Assembly: GCA_039704465.1 (NCBI GenBank)
Contig: JASFAU010000009.1
Coordinates: forward strand, 186,001 to 250,000
Direction of reading: 5' to 3'
Length of the DNA stretch: 64,000 nucleotides
Source of the DNA: Plasmodiophora brassicae
Taxonomy: Eukaryota > Endomyxa > Phytomyxea > Plasmodiophorida > Plasmodiophoridae
The notes beneath the pieces were generated by a model that was given only the letters and a program-made list of their open reading frames with translations, made no database searches and was not told the DNA's origin. The translations under genes and the position numbers were made by a program. Positions 34,526 to 48,481 of this stretch are shown in pieces (the first letter of the stretch is position 1; each line of letters opens with the position of its first letter).

Positions 34526-34546
34526 CGGAGTCCGTGACGGAGTCCG
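34526..34546 (+). promoter_or_regulatory. Double CGGAGTCCG element upstream of AAMP
   Basis: Two exact CGGAGTCCG copies separated by three bases (TGA), 13 nt before the AAMP start codon. The same arrangement occurs before three other genes in this window (40393, 41955 inverted, 42383). It may be a promoter element or a 5' UTR motif. Confidence 0.6.
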
Positions 34547-34559
34547 CAGCACACGGTCG

Positions 34560-35870
34560 ATGTCCGGCAGCGAGGTCATGATGGGTGACGATGATGGTGA
34601 CCAGCACCAGGAGGCGACTGAGATGTCGTCCAACGTGCTGCGGCAAGGCGAGGTCTGCGAGATTGTAAATGAGGAGAGTGACGGGCGACCCGTTGCAGAC
34701 GACATGGAGGACGGTAATGAGGAGAACAACGACGTTCAGATTCTTGAGGACGACTCCGTCCAAGGGTTCTTTCAGCACAGTGCCCCGGTCTACGTCGTTG
34801 CAACGCACCCAACGGACGTTGACCGCGTTTGCACGGGCGGAGGGGACGATAAAGCCTTCCAGTGGTCGATTTCCAGTGGCGATGAACAGTGCCAACAACT
34901 GGACCCGGCCCATTCCGATTCGGTCATTGCCGTTCGATATTCGTCGGATGGCACCTTGCTCTGCACTGCCGGAATGGACGGCGTTGTACGCGTGTTCGAC
35001 ATATCTGGAACCCCGTTACATACTCTGGACGGGCCTTCCTCCGAAATCGAGTGGATCCATTGGCACCCGCGAGGACCTGCTCTGGCTGTAGGCAGCGCCG
35101 ATGGCACCGTGTGGCTGTGGCATGTCACACAAAAGTCGGCAGCCGTCATCCACATCATGTCGCAGGATGTCGGCCCTGTCACATGCGGCACGTTTGCCGG
35201 CGAAAGCGGGAAGGTGCTGTGCACCGGCGCGGAAGATGGATCGGTGCGCGTCTGGTCCTGCAAGACCGGGCAAATCGTCTCCATGATCAAATCAGGGCCC
35301 ATGTTCCACGAAGCGCCCATCTGCTGTAAGCGGCCCGTCACCCCGTCGAGCGTCTCTGCCCAGTTCTGACTCGTGCCATGCATAGCCATTGATAGCCACC
35401 CGACGCAGCCGATTGTCCTGACTGGCTCGATGGATGAGACAGCGAGGTGGTCCCACATCGACAGCGGCAAGGTGCTCGGGACCGTCGCTGATCACGGTGC
35501 CGCTGTCGAGGCGGTGGCGTTCGCACCAGCCAGCCTGGGGATGAACTGGGCGGCCACGGGGGCAATGAACGGGTCCATCTTCATCACCGACATTGACCGA
35601 GGATCGGTCCGGGCCAGGTTCTCCCACGACGACGGCGTCGTCAAGCTGCTCTGGCTGCAGAAGCACGCGTTCACGTTGGCGTCGTGTTCGCTGGACGGCA
35701 GCGTGTCCTTATGGGACTCCCGATCAGGATCATGTCTGCACCGGTACAGAGGGCATAACGGCCCCGTCTTCGATATCGCCGTCACTGCCGACGAGCGATA
35801 CCTCGCGTCCGCCGGTGACGATCAGACCGCCCTCGTCTTCGCGTTGGACGACGCGGCACCTGTACAATAA
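34560..35870 (+). CDS. AAMP/Sqt1-type WD40 protein
   Basis: In other eukaryotes this protein chaperones ribosomal protein uL16 for large-subunit assembly. Two exons joined by an intron with a GTAAGC donor near 35326. An acidic N-terminus (residues 1-70) precedes about seven WD repeats, including THPTDVDRVCTGGGDDKAFQ, SDGTLLCTAGMDGVVRVFD, IEWIHWHPRGPALAVGSADG, AGESGKVLCTGAEDGSVRVW, SHPTQPIVLTGSMDETAR, LASCSLDGSVSLWDSRSG and YRGHNGPVFDIAVTADERYL. The order and the phrase IEWIHWHPRGP match AAMP (human EWMEWHPRAP). Length of about 410 aa fits. Convergent with the RING-H2 gene, only 21 bp between the stops. Confidence 0.85.
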
Positions 35871-35891
35871 TAGAGGGCACGTGTGATGTAT

Positions 35892-36755
35892 TTATACGGC
35901 GTCCCATGCGACCTGGTTGACGGTCGTCCTGCAGACTGGGCACGACGGGTGCGCCGGCAACCACCTATCGACGCAGGCGGCATGGAAGCAATGGCCGCAG
36001 TTGGGCATGTCCTTGCACAGGTCGCCGGCAACGAAATCGTCCAGGCAGATGGCGCAGCAGTCGCTGTCGTCGGTCTTGGTGGTGTCGTCGCCGAACGTGA
36101 ACGTCGGCATCTGCTGCGGGTCGAATCGAGGCGCCGGGTGACTGCGCAGGACAAGGTCGAACCCGTCGTCGACGTCGTCGTCCATGACGCGACACTCCCT
36201 GTACACGTCGTAGAACTTGACGAGCAGGTAGACGTACGAGAACAGCACCCATATCATTCTGCAACGCTACGGGGTCAGCGCGTCCCGGCGTTCCACGAAC
36301 ACGGCTTCGTTACATGACAGAGTTCGACGTGGAATGCGCCAGGCACGCATAGTAATGGATCACCCTGAAGCGCGTTCAGACAAGGGGCCCGGCAGTGTGG
36401 GGTGGAAACGATGGACCCACCAGATGGTGCCGGAGATGGTCCAGGCCGCGAAGACGGGCAGGATGACGAACGTGTGGATGATCTCGCAGACCTGGGCGGT
36501 GCAGTCGGTCTCGACGTCGTCGTTATCGTATCGTGCCGATAGCAATCGGGACACCATGACGATCACGTACGAGACGCACAGGTAGACCTGCATGTAGACC
36601 GCGCATGATTCGGTCCGGTTCCAGCTGAGCATTGTCACCAGGACCAGGTACAGCAGCAGGCCGAGGAACACGCGGTCATTGCTGAACAAGGCGGCCTCAG
36701 CATCGCCCCGATCGGCGCAATCGTTCGACACCGACCAGGACAACGTAAACGGCAT
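35892..36755 (-). CDS. Transmembrane RING-H2 E3 ubiquitin ligase
   Basis: Two exons. Exon 1 (from 36755) encodes membrane helices: FLGLLLYLVLVTMLSW, YMQVYLCVSYVIVMVSRLL and HTFVILPVFAAWTISGTIW. An intron of about 100 nt ending gttgcag joins in phase to MIWVLFSYVYLLVKFYDVY, a fourth helix. The C-terminus is a RING-H2: CCAICLDDFVAGD, then MPNCGHCFHAACVDRWLP and SCPVCRTT, giving C3H2C3 zinc ligands. Topology suggests a membrane-anchored ligase with a cytosolic RING. The substrate is unknown. Confidence 0.85.
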
Positions 36756-37356
36756 GGGGACCGGTGAACGCGACTACGACACCGTGTTGGTGGATTGAGG
36801 CGATCGTCATTTACCGGTACTGTTCGCGCCCACCTTCATGCGCAAGCAGTCACACAGTGCACTGAGGCTCTCTCTCTCTCTCTCTGTCCCTCGGCCAGTT
36901 GGGCGCCATTTCCATTTCAGGGACGTTCGCGGACGGGACGGAACGCGGTAAATCAAAGAACGTGTTAAAATGTTTACGGTACCGACGTCGGCGGTCTCTT
37001 GGCGGGAGAAACGCTCCATTCCACTTCGGAACTGGTCCCAAGTGACAACCGACCTGCCGGCGAGTGCAGGATCTGGGACCGCTTGGCAAGCTCTGCCCGA
37101 AGCAGACTGAACGCATCATCCGGGTCGGATCTGAGCAGCAGCGGATCAGCCATTGGCTATGCGATAAACGTAGGCAAAAGCCGACTCGTATTGGAGAGGC
37201 CGTTGTCGTTGTTCGCGCCCGGGGATTGGCTTCAGCTTGACTGCCAGCAGGTCGTCGGGCTTGATCTCCATATTCCATATGACCGATTTCGTCTCGGAAA
37301 CGCAAACATTCGCTGCTGATCCCTGTCGCGAAGGGCTGTCAACGATGACACGTCAC
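36756..37356. other. Unassigned stretch with CT microsatellite
   Basis: It contains (CT)9 near 36868-36886. Minus-strand sequence here reads well in parts (KSVIWNMEIKPDDLLAVKLK) and follows a possible GTATGT donor/ttgacag acceptor intron (about 37322-37368). The coiled-coil gene to the right may therefore extend into this region. I could not fix a consistent model. Confidence 0.3.
36868..36886. repeat. CT dinucleotide microsatellite
   Basis: About nine CT units in tandem in the gene-poor stretch between the RING-H2 and coiled-coil genes. Confidence 0.85.
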
Positions 37357-38052
37357 TCATATTCGGAGGACACATACCTCTTCAGGACGGTTCTCTTGAT
37401 CAGCTAGGGAGTCGGTCTTATCGTTAGGCGCATCTGCAGATGATCCTTCAGGCCGTCGTCGTAGTCGAACCGCGCGCAAATCAGCAGATCCGAATGGCAA
37501 CCGATGCGGCCCTGAATCCTTGCTAGGCGTCGCCTCGGGCCCCTTTATTCCGGGCAGAGGAGGGGCGGGAGGAGCGGGGGGCGCAGCCGGAACGGCACCG
37601 TGTCCTTCTTCGAGACGCGGAACAGGCGGTGCAGCAGGGACCGCATCGTCTCCATTGTCGGCATCCAATGTTTGCGTTTCGCAGGAGATGGCCCGCTTCT
37701 CAATATGGTCCTTCTGTTGCATTAGGCGTAGATCGTCCTCCAGCTCGCGGATCCGCTCCTGCAGGGAATCCCGGGACGGCCTCCTGAACTAATCCGACCA
37801 TCAGGATCGCCACCCAGAAGAACGAGCGTTCCCGCATACAAATTTCTTGACCGAGTTGATTGCACGACGGACGGCGCCAGCCACGACGCCGTCGACGGAC
37901 GCGTCGTGCGCGACCCGGTGCCGCCGGTGATACCCGCCGATGCGTCGCGCCGGCAGCGCGGGCGTCAGACCCGGCGCCTGGCGACGCACAACGGGCGCGC
38001 CATGCACGCGGAACAGCGGCCCGCGACGACTGGACCCTCCTGGGCGAGTCAT
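37357..38052 (-). CDS. Coiled-coil, proline-rich protein (possibly incomplete)
   Basis: The start is MTRPGGSSRRGPLFRV, a basic N-terminus ending AVRRAINSVKKF. An intron (donor gtatgcgg, acceptor gattag, about 52 nt) joins in phase to FRRPSRDSLQERIRELEDD then LRLMQQKDHIEKRA, a short coiled coil. A proline-rich block VPAAPPAPPAPPLPGIKG resembles an actin-regulatory FH1-type or SH3-binding segment. The frame stops at 37357, but a GTATGT donor just before the stop suggests another exon to the left. No FH2 domain is seen. Function unknown. Confidence 0.5.
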
Positions 38053-38189
38053 TGACGAGCAAATGGCACCCTCACTCCCCCACTTCACTAACGCAATGCG
38101 CTGCCAGTCCCAGGGCGCAACAACAACAGCCCCGTTTTTTTTGGCGCTTCATTTGACCGGGCCTGTCCTATTCTGGAGCAGAGCGAGAG

Positions 38190-38245
38190 ACTGGCGAGCT
38201 GCAAGCGGCCACTGGCGAGCTGCAAGCGGCCACTGGCGAGCTGCA
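38190..38245. repeat. 21-bp minisatellite, about 2.7 units
   Basis: The 21-bp unit beginning actggcgagctgcaagcgg is repeated twice exactly, followed by a partial third copy. It lies between the coiled-coil gene start and the MscS stop. It has no obvious coding role. Confidence 0.9.
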
Positions 38246-38285
38246 GGGTCGGCCCAGGCAGCTGTCGTTCGGGAACGGCGGTTTA

Positions 38286-40289
38286 TTATTTTGCGGTTGT
38301 ACGGGGCAACAAGGCCACTGACGGCAGTGAGGATGAGTGGTCGGTGATGTCAATCGTGACCGGTTGTGGCGGTTGCCGATAGGTGATCTTCAGCTGGACC
38401 ATCTTCAGGGTGACGAATCGTTTCAGGTCCCAGTTGGCGGCGTGGAATGACCCGCCTTGCTTCCAGGTGTAGCAGGACTCGACCTTGATCTCGAGGCGGA
38501 TCGACGTGGCCTGCGAGATGTCGTTCCAGCCGAACGTGACCCGGGGCTTCCAATGGGCGGCATTCCCTGTCACGTAATTCAGGATCGCCTTGCGCAACTT
38601 CTCGATGGAGTCGATCGAGGTGCTCATCGCGACATCAGTTGCAATGACGGACACGGCGCGGTCGTTGCTGAACGACTGATTGATGATGCTCATGTCGCAG
38701 AGCACCTGGTTCGAGAACCGGACGATCTTGTTGGACGAGTCGCGCATGCGCGTCTCTAGCAACCCGATCTGATGCACCGTGTACGACTTGCCGTCGACAA
38801 TGACGACGTCGTTCACCGTGAACGGCTGGCTACCGAACACGAATATGATGGATTCCACGCAACGCGATATGGATTTGCTCGTGGCGAACGACAACGAGAT
38901 GAAGATGGTGGACATGGTCACCATCAGACCCGTGTAGTTGTACTCGAACACGTACGCAACAGCCAGACATGATACCAGCACGAGCAGGACGCCGGCAAAG
39001 GTCCCGATCAAGGTCGTCAGGTTCCTGAAGCCAGACAGCCGTCCTGCCAGTGCGGAACGCTTTTCGCCAAAGGCGCAGATCGCCGACACGAAGTCGGTCT
39101 CGGTAAGGTGCAATTCATTCATCGGGAACATCAGCTTGTACGTCGTCACCGCAAGATGGTGGTTGCCCTGTGAACGGTAATCAGTCGACATCCAGAACAC
39201 AGAGCGACTGGCCCTTACCATGAACAGCGCCTCCCAGTCGCTGAAGGCGATCGTTCCCGAACTGGACAGGCTGTTGAACAGGGCAGTCGCAACAAGCTCA
39301 AACTGTGGCAATCAGCAACACATAGGAAGGCTGAGGCGATGACAAGTTACCTCCTTCTTGGTAGAGACCTCGACCCGTGACGTCTCCGAGTACCGCCAAG
39401 GTCCGGAAAGGGATTGCTTCAGTGGAAGCGTCAGGGATTCATCGCGGATCTTGGCCAGGCGATCCATCAGGTGGGTGCGCTTGAAGGCAAGGTACCGCGA
39501 TGATAACGACTTCGGGCATTGGTCGGAGCGCCCAATTTGGCGGCAGAGGTGCTCCAAGGTGAACGCCCCCAACGCACAGTTGTGTATACGATGACCGAAC
39601 GATTTCTCGGCGAACAGTCGCTCGAGGACGCGCAGGCCGACGTTCTTCAGAACAACGATGATAAGGATGATGTAGGCAGACTTGATCCATTTTCCGGCTA
39701 GTTGGACTTCGCGCGGAACGTTCACGTTCAGAGACGCCATCCACTCGTCGAGCAGTACTTCAGACATGACGATGCAGAAGACGACGATGCGCAGCCATCC
39801 GTGCAGTTCCTGAACGATGACACGAAGTCCCCATCCAGCATTTGAACTACATGCCGCGATGGCTTGCATGGCCCAGGACACGAGTTTCTCCGCCAGGCCG
39901 CACAGAAAGTACACAACGACCGCAAGGAAAGGCGTCAGGTACCATCGATAGTGCGATTTCATCTCGGGAGGTCCAAGCAGGAGGGCCCCAATTGTGAACA
40001 GCAGCGAGCAGGTCGCCACCAGGATCGGAATCTGCCGGTTGCGCATGAATTCAGAGCAGTTTGCGAGGGATCGAAGCACCACGTTGCGGTTATCGCGCTC
40101 CTCAAGGCTGAACATTTTCGCCTGGTTTGCGGGCAACGTCGACGCTCCACCCGCCCCGCCATTATCGTTGTCCACAACGATAAGTCGAGGGGTGCGATCC
40201 CACATCTCGATCGTGTCCGCATCCGATTCCGCCTTGTCCGCCGTCGCATTGTCGACGCGGACGTCATGCATGCACGGTTTGTCCCCCAT
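38286..40289 (-). CDS. MscS-like mechanosensitive channel
   Basis: It opens on membrane tension to release ions. Two exons, joined by a 50-nt intron at about 39302-39351 (donor gtaact, acceptor ccacag). About 650 aa. The acidic N-terminal 60 aa are hydrophilic. Helices include IPILVATCSLLFTIGALLLG, WYLTPFLAVVVYFLCGLAE, IVVFCIVMSEVLLDEW and AYIILIIVVLKNVGLRVLE, then LIGTFAGVLLVLVSCLAVAY and a pore-region helix TGLMVTMSTIFISLSFATS. The beta domain follows: ESIIFVFGSQPFTVNDVVIV, then YTVHQIGLLETRMRD and IVRFSNQVLCDMSIINQS, a signature of eukaryotic MSL channels. The start is MGDKPCMHDVRVD. Confidence 0.88.
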
Positions 40290-40392
40290 GGCACACTTTC
40301 GTGCACGAGCGAGGACTGACAGAGAGCTGAGTCTGGCGCGATCCTATTTCTGGACCCATGTTTCACGAGGGGACCCTCGCTCGACCCGACTG

Positions 40393-40413
40393 CGGAGTCC
40401 GTGACGGAGTCCG
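40393..40413 (+). promoter_or_regulatory. Double CGGAGTCCG element upstream of RPABC4
   Basis: Identical core to the element at 34526: two CGGAGTCCG copies separated by TGA. It lies 12 nt before the RPABC4 start codon and about 100 bp upstream of the divergent MscS start. Confidence 0.6.
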
Positions 40414-40425
40414 CGGACAGATTGC

Positions 40426-40717
40426 ATGATGGAGGTCGACAGTGGCAATGTCGATGAACCTGCTCCAGTTGTGATCAGCGGCGGCCTGCCACCCTGCAAC
40501 CCGAGCGCGACCGCGTCCGGCTTCCTATGCGGTGACTGCGGGTACGTCCGCTGCTATGAGGCACTGCGTCCTGTGCAAACTAACACTGGGGTTCAGGGTG
40601 GAAAACGTCATCCGCGCGAGAGATGCCATCCGGTGCCGTGAGTGTGGATACCGAATCCTGTACAAGAAGCGGGAGAGAAAGTGTTCGTACGCGGTTAACA
40701 CATTGGCATTGTCGTGA
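40426..40717 (+). CDS. RNA polymerase subunit RPABC4 (Rpb12/Rpc10)
   Basis: A small zinc-binding subunit shared by RNA polymerases I, II and III. The intron (donor gtacgtcc near 40545, acceptor ggttcag) rebuilds the zinc ribbon: [20 protein letters not shown], then [15 protein letters not shown]. The four Cys ligands (CGDC and CRECG) and the [13 protein letters not shown] block are diagnostic. The N-terminus ([16 protein letters not shown]...) is longer than in yeast. The C-terminus is uncertain: the frame reads to a stop at 40717, but canonical members end with a V-x-F-x-A-R tail, and a further splice to VVSFWP near 40741 is possible. Confidence 0.85.
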
Positions 40718-41398
40718 TGGACTAAATCGTTCGCCTGTTAGGTCGTCAGCTTCTGGCCCGGTGACCCTGTCATGGTGTCCCCTGTTCTCGATCAATAACT
40801 AAATTAATACCACTCCGTTACGTATCGTTCATGATGGATTCTGCCGGCGCGCTGTCACATGTGCGTGCCATTAATCGATGGATCCGAATGACGGGTCGAG
40901 CAGTACTGGTACCACCGTGCAGTCGTTTGTCCTTCGTGCTGCATCACGCGTTGTAAGTCCTACGTCGTGTAAGTGTTTAGTGTGTACAAGGGCCAGCGAT
41001 GCGTATTCCTGTGGGCAGTCTTCTGAAGAATGTTGCCCCGCGCTCGATTTCGGAGCTCATCAATGATCAGCGCTAAACATAGCGCTTGAGGTCTTTGCGG
41101 CTTGCTTTAGTTGCGTGCGGCACTGCGAGCGGACCGGGTGGTCACGCGTCGGCGTCTCGGCGAGCCCTCGCCCCTCGTCTCGTCGTCGCTCCTTCCGGTG
41201 TTAACGCGCGCCGTCACAGGATGGTGTACGCACGGTGCTCCAATGCTGTACCAGACGATAACGGGCAGTCGAGCGAATAGCATGAGCGAGGCCAATGTTG
41301 TATTCTGACTAGATCATTTGTGGTATATTTTACTGGAGCTGACAATGCGTGTGTGGCCGAGATACGGTTGTGATGCGTAGAGGAAGAGACGCCCGTGT
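40718..41398. other. Unassigned, possible small spliced gene
   Basis: Around 40831-41082 a short plus-strand coding possibility exists: MDPNDGSSSTGTTVQSFVLR, a GTAAGT site, then MRIPVGSLLKNVAPRSISE. The implied intron would be only about 28 nt if phases are kept, so the model is doubtful. From 41083 to 41398 I see nothing. Confidence 0.2.
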
Positions 41399-41875
41399 CT
41401 AGTAGGTGACGGATTGCACGGGAACTCCACCATCTACGGATGTTGGTGCGGCCGAATTGCACTGGCGCGTCTGTCGGTAGGCGGCGCAGACCGCTGCTAG
41501 CTGCGCCAGCGCCACCGAGTTACAGTACATGTTGTCGCGACTGACGTCGCCCTCTTCGATGCAGTTGTCCTGGCTGGCCGAGTCGGTCGTGTCGTCGGCG
41601 TCCTCGGTGGTCATGCTGATCGTGCGAGCAACGATAGCGCGTTGTGGGCTGGGCGTCGAGTTCAGTCGTGGGCCAATTTGCACTTCTTGAGCGGTGTGAA
41701 CAGGCGCTGCCTGCTCGGCGCCCAGCAGCGACAATGACTTGGTGCGCCTGCGAACACGGGCCTTGAGCGCGCGAACCGCCAATCTGCATTCGACGGAACA
41801 GTAGTGGGCGCGGTTCGACCGATCCGACCCGACCGTATTCGGGCATTCGGGCCTGCGACACGGTTTCCAGGACAT
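41399..41875 (-). CDS. Small Cys-rich putative zinc-binding protein
   Basis: A single exon of 158 aa with an ATG at 41875. The N-terminal 40 residues have four spaced cysteines and flanking basic residues: CRRPECPNTVGSDR, then AHYCSVECRLAVRALKARVR. This C-x4-C...C-x3-C arrangement resembles treble-clef or FCS-like fingers. The rest is low-complexity and acidic/Thr-rich with no motif. An inverted CGGAGTCCG pair lies 80-100 bp upstream. Function unknown; a nucleic-acid role is only a guess. Confidence 0.55.
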   Translation of the reverse strand: MSWKPCRRPECPNTVGSDRSNRAHYCSVECRLAVRALKARVRRRTKSLSLLGAEQAAPVHTAQEVQIGPRLNSTPSPQRAIVARTISMTTEDADDTTDSASQDNCIEEGDVSRDNMYCNSVALAQLAAVCAAYRQTRQCNSAAPTSVDGGVPVQSVTY

Positions 41876-41954
41876 TGCGTCTTGACACGTAACTGCTGTT
41901 GTGGGGTGTTTCCAGCTGCTGGTCGCGGTGCGTGTGACGTCTTGGGATGTGACG

Positions 41955-41975
41955 CGGACTCCGTCACGGCGTCCG
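41955..41975 (-). promoter_or_regulatory. Double CGGAGTCCG element, minus orientation, one mismatch
   Basis: The plus strand reads CGGACTCCG, three bases TCA, then CGGCGTCCG, the reverse complement of the elements at 34526 and 40393 with one substitution. It sits about 80 bp upstream of the Cys-rich gene start on the minus strand. Confidence 0.5.
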
Positions 41976-42382
41976 CCCCGTGGGGTCGCTATTTCTGTTT
42001 AGACCCACAAACGCTTAACGGGGACACCGTCGTCAACGCGACGCGGTTACGGATCCCGCGCCTACCGATGAACGCCCCCGCTCACTCGTCGGTCCAAATA
42101 GTTGCGCTACACCAGACCCCTGCAACTTGCATCGCACTCTTAAACAACGCATCATCAATCTACTGCCAATCAACTCGTTCATGCTGCCCTTGTTACCGCA
42201 TCTGAATCGGGTTTCGTTGTGACACTAAGGATTACAAGAATATATTACGCGGCTATTATATCAACCCGAACAGAAACGTGCGCGTGGTTCGAGGCGAATC
42301 GCTTGAATGCCAGCAGCAGGGCAGAGGAGGGTTCTGGAGACTGGAGGTGGCTGGTCTGGCTTCAGAGACAACCTGCTGATCA

Positions 42383-42403
42383 CGGAGTCCGTAGCGGAGT
42401 CCG
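42383..42403 (+). promoter_or_regulatory. Double CGGAGTCCG element upstream of DDX24/MAK5
   Basis: Two CGGAGTCCG copies separated by TAG, 28 nt before the helicase start codon. This is the fourth copy in the window. Confidence 0.6.
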
Positions 42404-42431: not shown

Positions 42432-44569
42432 ATGGGGATGGGGAAGCCGGCATCATCGGACGCAGCTTGGACGTCACTATCTTGGAAGCCTGTCGAGTGC
42501 GACCTTCGCGTTGCGTCGTTAGGCGATGACGAAGGATTTTCTGGGATGCTTTCCCTCGAAGAGGTGTCTGGGACTGAATTTAGCGCGGCAATCATTGAGA
42601 CGGAGGACGTGACGTCCGAGCCAACTCAGCAGAAAGCGTCCAGGAAGAAGACAAAGAAGAAGACGTCGGGCTCACCGGTTAAGCCTACCGTTGCTATCGA
42701 AATGACAGAGGAAGCCGAAGATATTGACATGTCCGCCTGGGAATGCCTCGAACTCGATGACGCGCTCCTCAGAAGTCTGAAGGCTCTACGGTTCACATCA
42801 CCCACTGAAATCCAAACCCGAGCATTCAACCCAGTGTTCCGGGATCGCAAAGACATCCTTGCGGCATCACAAACGGTGTGTAACTTGCAGCTGTGCAACG
42901 TCAACGTTTAACACTGCGTTCTAGGGATCGGGGAAGACTCTTGCCTTCGGATTGCCGATCCTGAACCGGCTGCTGAAGTTTCCGCCGCGTCAGGATAACG
43001 AAGCAACCCCGCTTTCTGTACTGATCGTCACTCCGACCAGAGAACTCGCTATGCAAATATGCCAGCACCTCAGACGGGTTGCCGATGGCACATCGATCAA
43101 GGCCTGATTGCGGTCATTCGTCTCTCGTAAGCACGCTGCTGACGTTTTCTCTTGCAGATTGCCGAGTGCGTTGGAGGCATGGCCATTGCAAAGCAGCAGC
43201 GAGTGTTACGCTCGCATCCCGACATCGTCGTTGCGACGCCAGGTCGACTGTGGGACATAATCCAAGAAGGCGAGCCACACGTCTGCGACCTGTCTTCGTT
43301 GCAGTTTGTCGTCCTGGATGAAGCCGATCGGATGATCTCTCGTGGTCACTTTAAAGAGCTCGACATGATCCTTGGGTTCATTGGCAAGTCTGCACCGGCG
43401 TCGCGTTATCAGACGCTGCTCTTCTCGGCGACGATGACGTCCATGGCAACGCCAAAGGCGCGACCGGGACAGCGGTCATCGTCAACCCTGCAAGATCTCA
43501 TCAGCCGGATCACGTTTCGTTCCCGTCCTGCGTTCATCGACCTCACGCCTGAAACACGTGTTGCCGATGGCCTGTCTGAATCGCGTATCCAGTGTCTCCC
43601 CGAGGAGAAGGACGCGTATGTGTACTACTTCCTGGCCAAACACGCTGGGCGAACCATTGTGTTCATGAATTCGATCGCCAGCGTGCGCCGATTCCATGCT
43701 CTATTCACGTTGCTGCAATTCCCCGTTCGTTGAAGGCAATGCCGACTCGCCTTCGCATTCTGATTTGGTGTGTCAGGTCTTCCCATTGCACGCGTCCATG
43801 CAGCAGAGGCAGCGTCTGAAGAACCTGGACAGGTTCAAAGCTAGTGACAACTGTGTCCTCGTCTGCACCGATGTCGCCGCTCGAGGACTTGACATTCCTA
43901 ACGTGGACAATGTCGTTCACTACCAGGTAGGAGCACATGTCCTAACTGGGGGGTATGGCTGGCTAACCGATTCTGCATCAGGCTGCGCCTACCAGCGATA
44001 TCTACGTGCACCGATCAGGACGGACGGCACGGATCGGGGGGAACGGGCTGAGCCTGATGCTGATCGCACCGGCAGAACAGGAGGCGTACCGTCGTCTGAC
44101 CCGTGACCTGTCGCATTCGGTTGCCGAGTTCCCAGTCGACACGGCTCTGCTGGTCCCGATCCGCAAGCGGATCAATGTCGCCACCAAACTAGATCGGTTG
44201 CTGTCGGAAGACAAGAAGGCCAGCGCCGAATCGAACTGGTTCGCCAAGCACGCCAAGGAAATGGACATCCTCCTGGATGACGATATCGTCCCGAAAACTG
44301 CCTCGGCAACCGACGACGATCGCGCGCGTCGCAACCAGCAGTTCGCGTCCATGCGTGCCCATCTGGCCCAACTGCTTGCCGAGCCCCTGATCCCGCGTGG
44401 TGTATCACGTTCGTTTGTGACGACGAACAGCATCCTACACGGCACGATGGATTTCGGCGATGGTTCGGTGGCACCGAACATTCCCCAGACCCGTGCTAAA
44501 CGCAAACGTCCCGTCGCCGCCGCTGATCTCGTACGAAAGTTACGACGCTTGAACGGGGCTACGAAGTAA
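42432..44569 (+). CDS. DEAD-box RNA helicase, DDX24/MAK5 type
   Basis: A nucleolar helicase for 60S ribosome assembly in yeast and mammals. The start is [13 protein letters not shown] (second ATG at 42438). A Lys-rich segment [11 protein letters not shown] precedes the Q motif [12 protein letters not shown]. Motif [14 protein letters not shown] is rebuilt across an intron. Then [68 protein letters not shown] and [11 protein letters not shown] follow. The intron 43102-43157 appears to be GC-AG. The long insert between motifs and the [13 protein letters not shown] phrase favour MAK5/DDX24. Five introns. The C-terminus ends with basic [10 protein letters not shown]. About 630 aa. Confidence 0.88.
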
Positions 44570-47216: not shown

Positions 47217-48481
47217 ATGCGCCTGCGCCGTCTGAGTTCCGGGCGATGCGTCGAGCTGCAGGAACCGGTGGCGCGGTCCCGGGGCATCGTTCTGGGCCGG
47301 TCGGAAGCGAGGACCGACGTCGTCGTCGGCGATTCGACAAAGATATCGAGGACGCATGCCGTGATCACACTGACCGAGCGCCACGAGTGGGTCATCGGGG
47401 ACCTGTCGTCAACCAATGGTCTTTACGTGAACGGCGTCCTGCGCAAACGCCATATCCTGAAACCGAATGACGTCATATCGTTCGTCGAACGGTGCCGTTT
47501 CGGATTCGTGTTCGAGGAGTCCCCTGCAGAGTGCCCCCCTGACAACGCCACTTCGGATCGGGTCGGCACCAAGCGGAAACGAAGCTCCAATGATGAACCC
47601 GACGCCGACGATGTTCGGGTTAGCAAACGGCAAGACATCATGTATGAACTGACGTGCAGGTATCGGGTGCACCCGTCTTGTTCTGTTGGTCTTCTGAGTG
47701 TACCTGCTTGACGGCCACAGCATTTGCTTGGAGCCCTATCTCGACCCGCTCACGTTCCAGTGCTCACATTCGTTCTGTCAGTCATGTATCGAGTTATGGC
47801 TGAGACAGAATTGCGAGTGTATGTAGAAGGCCTCCATGTAACTCTCGAGAGTACTCTTGGATTGGTAACGACCTACATAGGTCCCGTCTGCAGGACGCCT
47901 GTTACCAGGGATCCTGTGCCGTCTCTCAGCCTAAAGAACCAAGTTGAGCGCTGCCTATCGCCGCGAGACCTGACCGCGTACATGACGAGGAAAGCGGATG
48001 TCTGCACTGAGCGTGTTCGGGGTGCTTGTATGACTATACCCACTAAGGCAAGTGCGCCGTTTCAGGTCGAAAAGGAGTCGCTCCGAATGAAGCGTCGCGA
48101 GGTGAAAGTCACATCAACGCTGGCCGTTCTACATGTGGAGAAGCGTCGCATTGCCTGCGTCTTCGGTGCCTGGACTGATGCAAACGTGCGACTGCTTAAC
48201 AAGGGTGCGTTCCACTCGGCCCATCCTCTCCGTCCGTCGCCCCGTGTCTGATTTGAAACTTTCGTCCAACAGTGAACCGTAAACTATACGGCCGATCCAG
48301 ATCGCTGTTCATGGCCGCCATTGGCCTCACCGAGCAATCCATCCAGCAGCGGCCCGCATCTGAACTCCTTCAGGCGTACAGGAACCTGGGGGGCGTCCCA
48401 CCGGACAGCTCATCCGATGCGGACGTCGAATCCGTGCGTCAGTCCCTATGGCGATATATACGCTTCGGGTCCCCGCTCTAA
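47217..48481 (+). CDS. FHA-RING E3 ubiquitin ligase (RNF8/CHFR/Dma type)
   Basis: It would bind phosphothreonine and ubiquitinate partners, as in DNA-damage or mitotic checkpoint ligases. The start is MRLRRLSSGRCVELQEPV. FHA core: GIVLGRS, ISRTHAVITLTE and WVIGDLSSTNGLYVNG. A basic/acidic linker with KRKRSSNDEPDADD follows. The RING is split by two introns: 47660-47720 restores ELTCSICLEPYLDPLTFQ, and 47813-47880 (a GC-AG intron) restores RQNCPVCRT. The central part is CSHSFCQSCIELWL, so all eight C3HC4 ligands are present. A further intron near 48213-48271 leads to the C-terminal exon NRKLYGRSRSLFMAAIGLTE. About 380 aa. Confidence 0.85.

Follow-up and report, generated by a model that had tools for sequence, protein, structure and literature searches.

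The double element described here, two directly repeated near-palindromic 9-mers found before several genes in a 64-kb stretch of the Plasmodiophora brassicae genome (positions 186001-250000 of contig 9 in an assembly of 25.34 Mb and 21 contigs; hereafter the window), is genuine and specific, a promoter signature of ribosome-biogenesis (Ribi) genes in a rhizarian and a new one as far as the literature searched shows. It very probably represents a promoter-proximal DNA site marking the Ribi regulon of this plasmodiophorid, whose Ribi genes are probably controlled together via the element. Ribosome production is among the largest growth decisions of a cell; a further Ribi code, in a lineage remote from animals and fungi and written as an unusually long and regular site, bears on the repeated rewiring of this regulon and provides a handle for finding what regulates growth in an obligate plant parasite.

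In the window, exact CGGAGTCC pairs are present at 34526, 40393 and 42383, all on the + strand, and another copy lies on the - strand. An earlier, sequence-only reading of the window had listed four copies and given the one on the - strand a single mismatch; the places stand, three copies being exact and one near, but the mismatch count holds only if the half-site centre may be G or C, the strict word giving 2. The same reading found no further good copy in the window, and a scan at up to 3 mismatches agrees, returning beyond these four only position 47515, itself with 3 mismatches. Counted on both strands, the element pattern has 9 matches in the window versus 1.0 in shuffled sequence, and none of 100 shuffles attained 9. 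Across the genome, the exact CGGAGTCCGNNNCGGAGTCCG occurs 56 times versus 0.003 times expected from base composition, and chance occurrence is therefore excluded. When up to 3 mismatches are allowed, this nearly palindromic word is matched 362 times on either strand, and its reversed pattern 18 and 29 times; the relaxed CGGASTCCGYSRCGGASTCCG at up to 2 mismatches has 289 genome sites versus 4 for the reversed control, and the single 9-mer occurs 804 times versus 226 in its control.

The two halves have a preferred spacing. Strict pairs with a spacer of 0-30 number 73 in the genome and 0 in the controls, and 56 of the 73 have a spacer of 3, which bears out the 12-bp period first seen in the window; the other 17 have spacers of 0 (2 pairs), 2 (3), 4 (1) or 10-15 (11), two of these 17 being one repeated sequence and one overlapping a longer run. 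Alignment of the 56 exact sites gives the consensus YBR-CGGAGTCCG-YSR-CGGAGTCCG-YVR, in which the triplets flanking and separating the halves carry 0.34-1.05 bits per column. Just outside this consensus the information drops to 0.17 and 0.24 bits, and still farther away to at most 0.1, which sets the unit at about 27 bp. Each half is a palindrome apart from its central base, as had been noted from the window copies. With G or C allowed at both centres and a YSR spacer, there are 65 exact sites, 51 with both halves pointing one way (the 56 exact ones minus five with a non-YSR spacer) and 14 with mixed halves (binomial 4e-6), and it follows from this excess that the site has polarity. Some of the 56 exact sites have an extra half-site in register (at least 7 of 9 bases), which lies at -12 in 4 cases and at +24 in 3. 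Two other arrangements are of note: CGGASTCCG pairs with spacers of 10-15, about two helical turns (e.g. C1:1141190-1141219 and C1:1214385-1214414), form a minor class, of which one member sits 5' of a Brix-domain gene, and runs of three or more half-sites at L053 (C10:984949-984993), L091 (C6:282733) and C6:287636 lie near a short reading frame, MAVHGLLKSFCYCPA, which is common to L053 and L091 and perhaps marks a small duplicated family.

Many of the genes beside the element are those of ribosome assembly. Eighty open reading frames (ORFs), hand-picked at the 56 exact sites and at the fourth copy of the window, were scanned with Pfam at E≤0.01, ten of them being also compared with PDB sequences. 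Domain evidence for an adjacent ribosome-assembly, RNA polymerase I (Pol I), shared-polymerase-subunit or allied gene was obtained at 25 of the 56 exact sites, namely RPABC4, RCL1, bystin, UTP10, RRP12, two L1-domain proteins, NMD3, NLE1/RSA4, IMP4 (Brix), BMS1, ESF1, NOL6/UTP22, TGS1, NOC1/Mak21, eIF6, WDR74/NSA1, ACL4, RPA49, HAS1/DDX18, PRMT3, an LSO2-like protein, BOP1, TSR1 and SBDS. The UTP10 match lies below Pfam's own cut-off, the choice within the family is our assumption for some of these names (RCL1, IMP4, NOC1), and bystin has its nearest named relative in Spongospora subterranea, at 77% identity. Six more sites have weak or general matches and presumably carry KRR1, RRP9, LSG1, NVL/RIX7, AAMP and DDX24. 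In the PDB comparison, VCP-like ATPases and NVL were matched about equally at locus L048, and there was no match at E 0.1 at L064.

Control ORFs were picked by hand from 20 loci of 8 kb under a fixed rule, which took on each side the longest ORF listed that had 130 codons or more and lay wholly at least 2.2 kb off; one of the 31 satisfying this rule, L034:7025-7999, was omitted as it may belong to BMS1. Among the remaining 30, scanned with Pfam at E≤0.001 (PDB naming was applied to the sites only), 11 had a match and no Ribi gene was recognised, two of them (a G-patch protein and a PCI protein) being ambiguous as to a Ribi role. Comparing sites with ORFs, the contrast is 25/56 versus 0/30 (Fisher 2.4e-6), or 21/56 versus 0/30 on Pfam alone (p 3.4e-5). 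PRMT3, LSO2, TGS1 and RPABC4 are counted here as Ribi or allied; on Pfam alone and without these four, 17/56 versus 0/30 remain (p 3.7e-4). At the level of ORFs, 22 of the 80 belong to a Ribi-specific family, all at E<0.001, versus 0/30 controls (Fisher 4.2e-4), and under an assumed 3% of Ribi genes, 25 of 56 sites would have p about 2e-23. A single motif stands ahead of many ribosome-assembly genes but not of their neighbours, and the enrichment among growth genes suggested by the earlier reading is present, more exactly beside those of ribosome assembly.

Further loci point the same way. Twenty loci with one-mismatch sites were considered, and ten ORFs from nine of them, picked by eye recognition and hence not an unbiased sample, gave Pfam matches to Rio2_N, GN3L_Grn1, G-patch, XRN_N, a nucleoplasmin-like domain and ThiF; the four unmatched ORFs resemble, in our judgement, UTP4, PNO1, NOP16 and DUS1. 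When gene families are the starting point, 3 of 5 Brix genes (one via a pair with a 12-nt spacer) and 2 of 3 CBF/Mak21 genes have a listed paired element in the 1.3 kb upstream. Together with the Nop-family and largest-polymerase-subunit genes, this amounts to 5 of 14 genes, not all of which are Ribi genes, versus 0.09 expected. A listed pair is also found within 1 kb of at least 7 of 36 DEAD-box places (from 37 matches, two of which were taken as a single gene) versus 0.18 expected, one of them via a 14-nt spacer. Some carriers were already known when the families were chosen, namely IMP4 and NOC1 (2 of the five) and DDX24, HAS1 and the L063 helicase (3 of the seven), and the site list used covers one-mismatch sites to contig 10 only, so these counts are lower bounds.

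The element stands close before start codons. Averaged over the 56 sites, coding potential has its minimum just 5' of the element and climbs 3' on the element's strand, and farther 5' the opposite strand is favoured for coding; these differences are modest, yet the mean site sits in a pre-gene coding trough, contrary to random placement. A first ATG of any kind falls within 50 nt at 40 of the 56 sites versus 56.5% of random points, and because this distance is hardly informative, only starts opening straight into a matched domain were used, that is, those of all scanned ORFs that are matched at E≤0.001 and have a frame open within 100 nt of the element (28 genes). The first in-frame ATG of these genes is 8-133 nt past the element (median 32.5), and 25 of the 28 have it within 60 nt, at 8-59 nt. 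In the window, the distances by position are 13, 12, about 79 and 28 nt, as claimed before (13, 12, about 80 and 28). The claim that the orientation follows the gene is correct for all four window copies but becomes a strong preference genome-wide, where 26 of the 31 assigned Ribi genes are on the element's strand and five (bystin, UTP10, NLE1, TGS1 and eIF6) on the opposite one (binomial 2e-4); where the element had gene starts on both sides, the Ribi neighbour was chosen, so this is a count of assigned genes. The polarity of the element relative to the gene is thus preferred and not required. At L073 (C1:475602-476222), one element lies between a gene with a nucleoplasmin-like domain in Pfam and a divergent gene without a Pfam match, which we take to be UTP4-like, a possible bidirectional Ribi promoter.

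These features would fit a putative sequence-specific factor that reads the two directly repeated near-palindromic 9-mers at their 12-bp period as double-stranded DNA, as a multimeric protein near the transcription start, and, in step with growth, turns transcription up or down for the genes of ribosome assembly, Pol I and allied RNA functions. The sequence-only reading, in which the element could be a binding site for a dimeric factor coordinating growth genes, is supported; we infer that a single factor binds the element, that it does so as a dimer and that the expression of the genes is co-regulated. An RNA hairpin in the 5' leader, controlling the translation or stability of these mRNAs jointly in a manner resembling terminal oligopyrimidine (TOP) control, would also account for an element so near to the start codon and mostly on the sense strand, and the element sequence does fold, at -11.5 kcal/mol. 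However, the five opposite-strand genes among the 31 and the DEAD gene at L063 carry the element in the other orientation, and where their starts can be read they are as near as those of the sense genes (UTP10 +40, NLE1 +43, L063 +12). Moreover, mixed halves would fold perfectly, at -15.1 kcal/mol, yet it is the same-direction halves that are in excess, the opposite of what selection for a hairpin would produce. The RNA hairpin is therefore disfavoured, and we consider it improbable. Recognition as double-stranded DNA is favoured by four features taken together: a period of 12 bp, polarity, occurrence on either strand, and an excess of hairpin-spoiling halves. A dispersed repeat, or the remnant of a mobile element landing in promoters, might be suspected from the many copies across the genome, but there is almost no similarity between flanks past about 27 bp, so a repeat or transposon end, whose similarity should extend well beyond the element, was rejected; the placement and the class of gene also speak against this origin, which is extremely unlikely.

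Some observations weigh against a site dedicated to Ribi genes. No recognised Ribi gene adjoins 25 of the 56 exact sites, of which 12 have genes with other domains, 10 are unassigned and 3 are ambiguous. The twelve comprise TPR (L021) and Elongator Iki1 (L057), both matched below Pfam's cut-off, ankyrin with CHAP (L022), RING/TRAF, NUDIX, ankyrin, RanBP1, LRR, Bax1-I, two Ras-like and MYND proteins, whereas the unassigned sites include L066 with a sub-threshold YL1 match. The ambiguous sites are those of a HEAT_PBS protein (L050), of a weak DNA_pol_phi match (L051) and of the DEAD helicase at L063, for which the best PDB match is the splicing factor DDX23 in a search that does not settle the subfamily. 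In addition, the site ORFs were hand-picked and outnumber the controls (80 versus 30), and none of 3 Nop-family and none of 3 largest-polymerase-subunit genes has a listed paired element, the site list being incomplete; in one largest-subunit gene, a lone 9-mer lies about 170 bp ahead of the match. The non-Ribi carriers (e.g. RanBP1, Ras-like, NUDIX and ThiF) and the tight placement ahead of start codons could mean that housekeeping genes in general use the element at their core promoter or start site, and that Ribi genes are enriched only through their constitutive expression. We regard this as having little likelihood: there are only about 289 sites in a genome that we take to have around 10,000 genes, and the 46 exact sites with an assignment comprise 31 with Ribi or allied genes, 12 with others and 3 that are ambiguous. 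A Ribi promoter site remains the reading that we prefer.

Comparison with known Ribi codes sets the element apart from them. The Ribi transcriptional code is known to use unrelated words on the same genes in animals and fungi (PMC2570694), with Myc:Max binding E(CG) (CACGTG) at the core promoters of the holozoan regulon (PMC2570694), and polymerase A and C (PAC) and ribosomal RNA processing element (RRPE) modules serving Ribi genes across fungi (PMC3612091). The gene class is the same as in Holozoa, and cross-species name matching made in this analysis finds many genes in common with Table 1 of PMC2570694 (RCL1, RRP9, BYSL, HEATR1, RRP12, NLE1, IMP4, BMS1, ESF1, NOL6, CEBPZ, POLR1E, DDX18 and PRMT3), but the E(CG) system differs in both word and architecture. 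The fungal modules are alike in being lineage-specific short motifs 5' of ribosome biogenesis genes (PMC3612091, PMC2570694), whereas the present site is double, GC-rich and 27 bp long, its halves keeping a fixed period. In the 300 bp 5' of the 56 exact sites, compared with 2000 random segments that include coding DNA, none of PAC, RRPE, E(CG), site II and the telo-box is significantly enriched: CACGTG is found at 4/56 versus 9.9% of the random segments, the PAC word GATGAG at 12/56 versus 12.9% (p 0.07), the RRPE word TGAAAAATTT at 0/56 and also 0/2000, so that this comparison says little, and GCGATGAG at 0/56; the telo-box is likewise absent from the random segments and its comparison says equally little. 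For P. brassicae itself, intergenic distances are mostly below 800 bp and untranslated regions overlap (PMC4815078), no spliced leader was found (PMC6053224), and the main text of PMC4815078 uses "promoter" once and "transcription factor" never. Open-licence literature was searched for the 9-letter word, Ribi motifs and the promoters and starts of Rhizaria and P. brassicae, and the element is not described among the matches listed, as far as their available text goes. Upstream of the element, TATAWA (8/56 versus 67/2000, 3.4%) and CCAAT (26/56 versus 596/2000, 29.8%; p 0.011) are somewhat enriched, and TACCTA/TAGGTA (13/56 versus 85/2000; p 1e-6 uncorrected for 1460 tests) is a weak lead; all three may be further promoter words.

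As to which protein might bind, fungal zinc-cluster proteins read CGG triplets, and the element can be read as CGG-N3-CCG-N3-CGG-N3-CCG, with the consensus [CGG-AST-CCG-YSR]2, so that its CGG half-sites keep a fixed arrangement. Zn2Cys6 (Gal4-type) sites resemble it in having inverted or direct CGG triplets, and the corresponding PF00172 domain is present in the genome; on the other hand, the bases between the triplets are also constrained here, and as a Zn2Cys6 site the element is putative. At E≤0.001, PF00172 has 31 matches in the genome, the best at 9.5e-7; they fall in about 24 ORFs, of which seven have two clusters about 45-65 residues apart; at L029, one zinc-cluster motif is readable in an ORF without a Pfam match at 0.001. 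The PF00172 proteins are candidate binders only, and a lead. It is conceivable, although rather unlikely, that they form part of an independently evolved rhizarian Ribi circuit in which a Gal4-type dimer, possibly with two clusters per chain, would place four clusters on the four CGG triplets; if true, this protein, from a family usually called fungal, would do in plasmodiophorids what Myc or the yeast PAC/RRPE factors do elsewhere. Zinc-cluster factors have been called exclusive, or almost exclusive, to fungi (PMC10746196, PMC11288014).

Features of the window (positions in the window) and examples of PF00172 matches elsewhere in the genome (C-prefixed coordinates)
Feature	Position	Strand	Remark
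Double element CGGAGTCCG-TGA-CGGAGTCCG	34526..34546	+	13 nt 5' of AAMP/Sqt1-like ATG
AAMP/Sqt1-like WD40 gene	34560..35870	+	two exons inferred; WD40 in Pfam
Double element	40393..40413	+	12 nt 5' of RPABC4 ATG
RPABC4 (Rpb12)	40426..40717	+	PF03604, E 7.7e-10; exon structure inferred
Cys-rich ORF	41399..41875	-	no Pfam match at E 0.01
Fourth element copy	41955..41975	-	~79 nt 5' of Cys-rich ORF ATG
Double element with degenerate third half-site 3'	42383..42403	+	28 nt 5' of DDX24/MAK5-like ATG
DEAD-box helicase, DDX24/MAK5-like	42432..44569	+	PF00270 in middle ORF; exon structure inferred
PF00172 match	C10:659639-659878		profile match
PF00172 match	C10:661227-661457		profile match
PF00172 match	C6:625835-626083		profile match
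PF00172 match	C6:1357925-1358185		profile match
PF00172 match	C18:233490-233732		profile match
PF00172 match	C18:616262-616498		profile match
PF00172 match	C19:63751-64038		profile match

Within the window, the Pfam match to PF03604 confirms RPABC4, a subunit common to RNA polymerases I, II and III. The WD40 gene, matched in PDB by generic WD40 proteins only, is presumed to be AAMP, following the earlier reading; Sqt1 is a chaperone of uL16/RPL10. The DEAD-box gene is likewise taken to be DDX24/MAK5, its PDB search leaving the subfamily unsettled. By association with its copy of the element, the Cys-rich ORF may be considered a candidate new ribosome-assembly or RNA factor.

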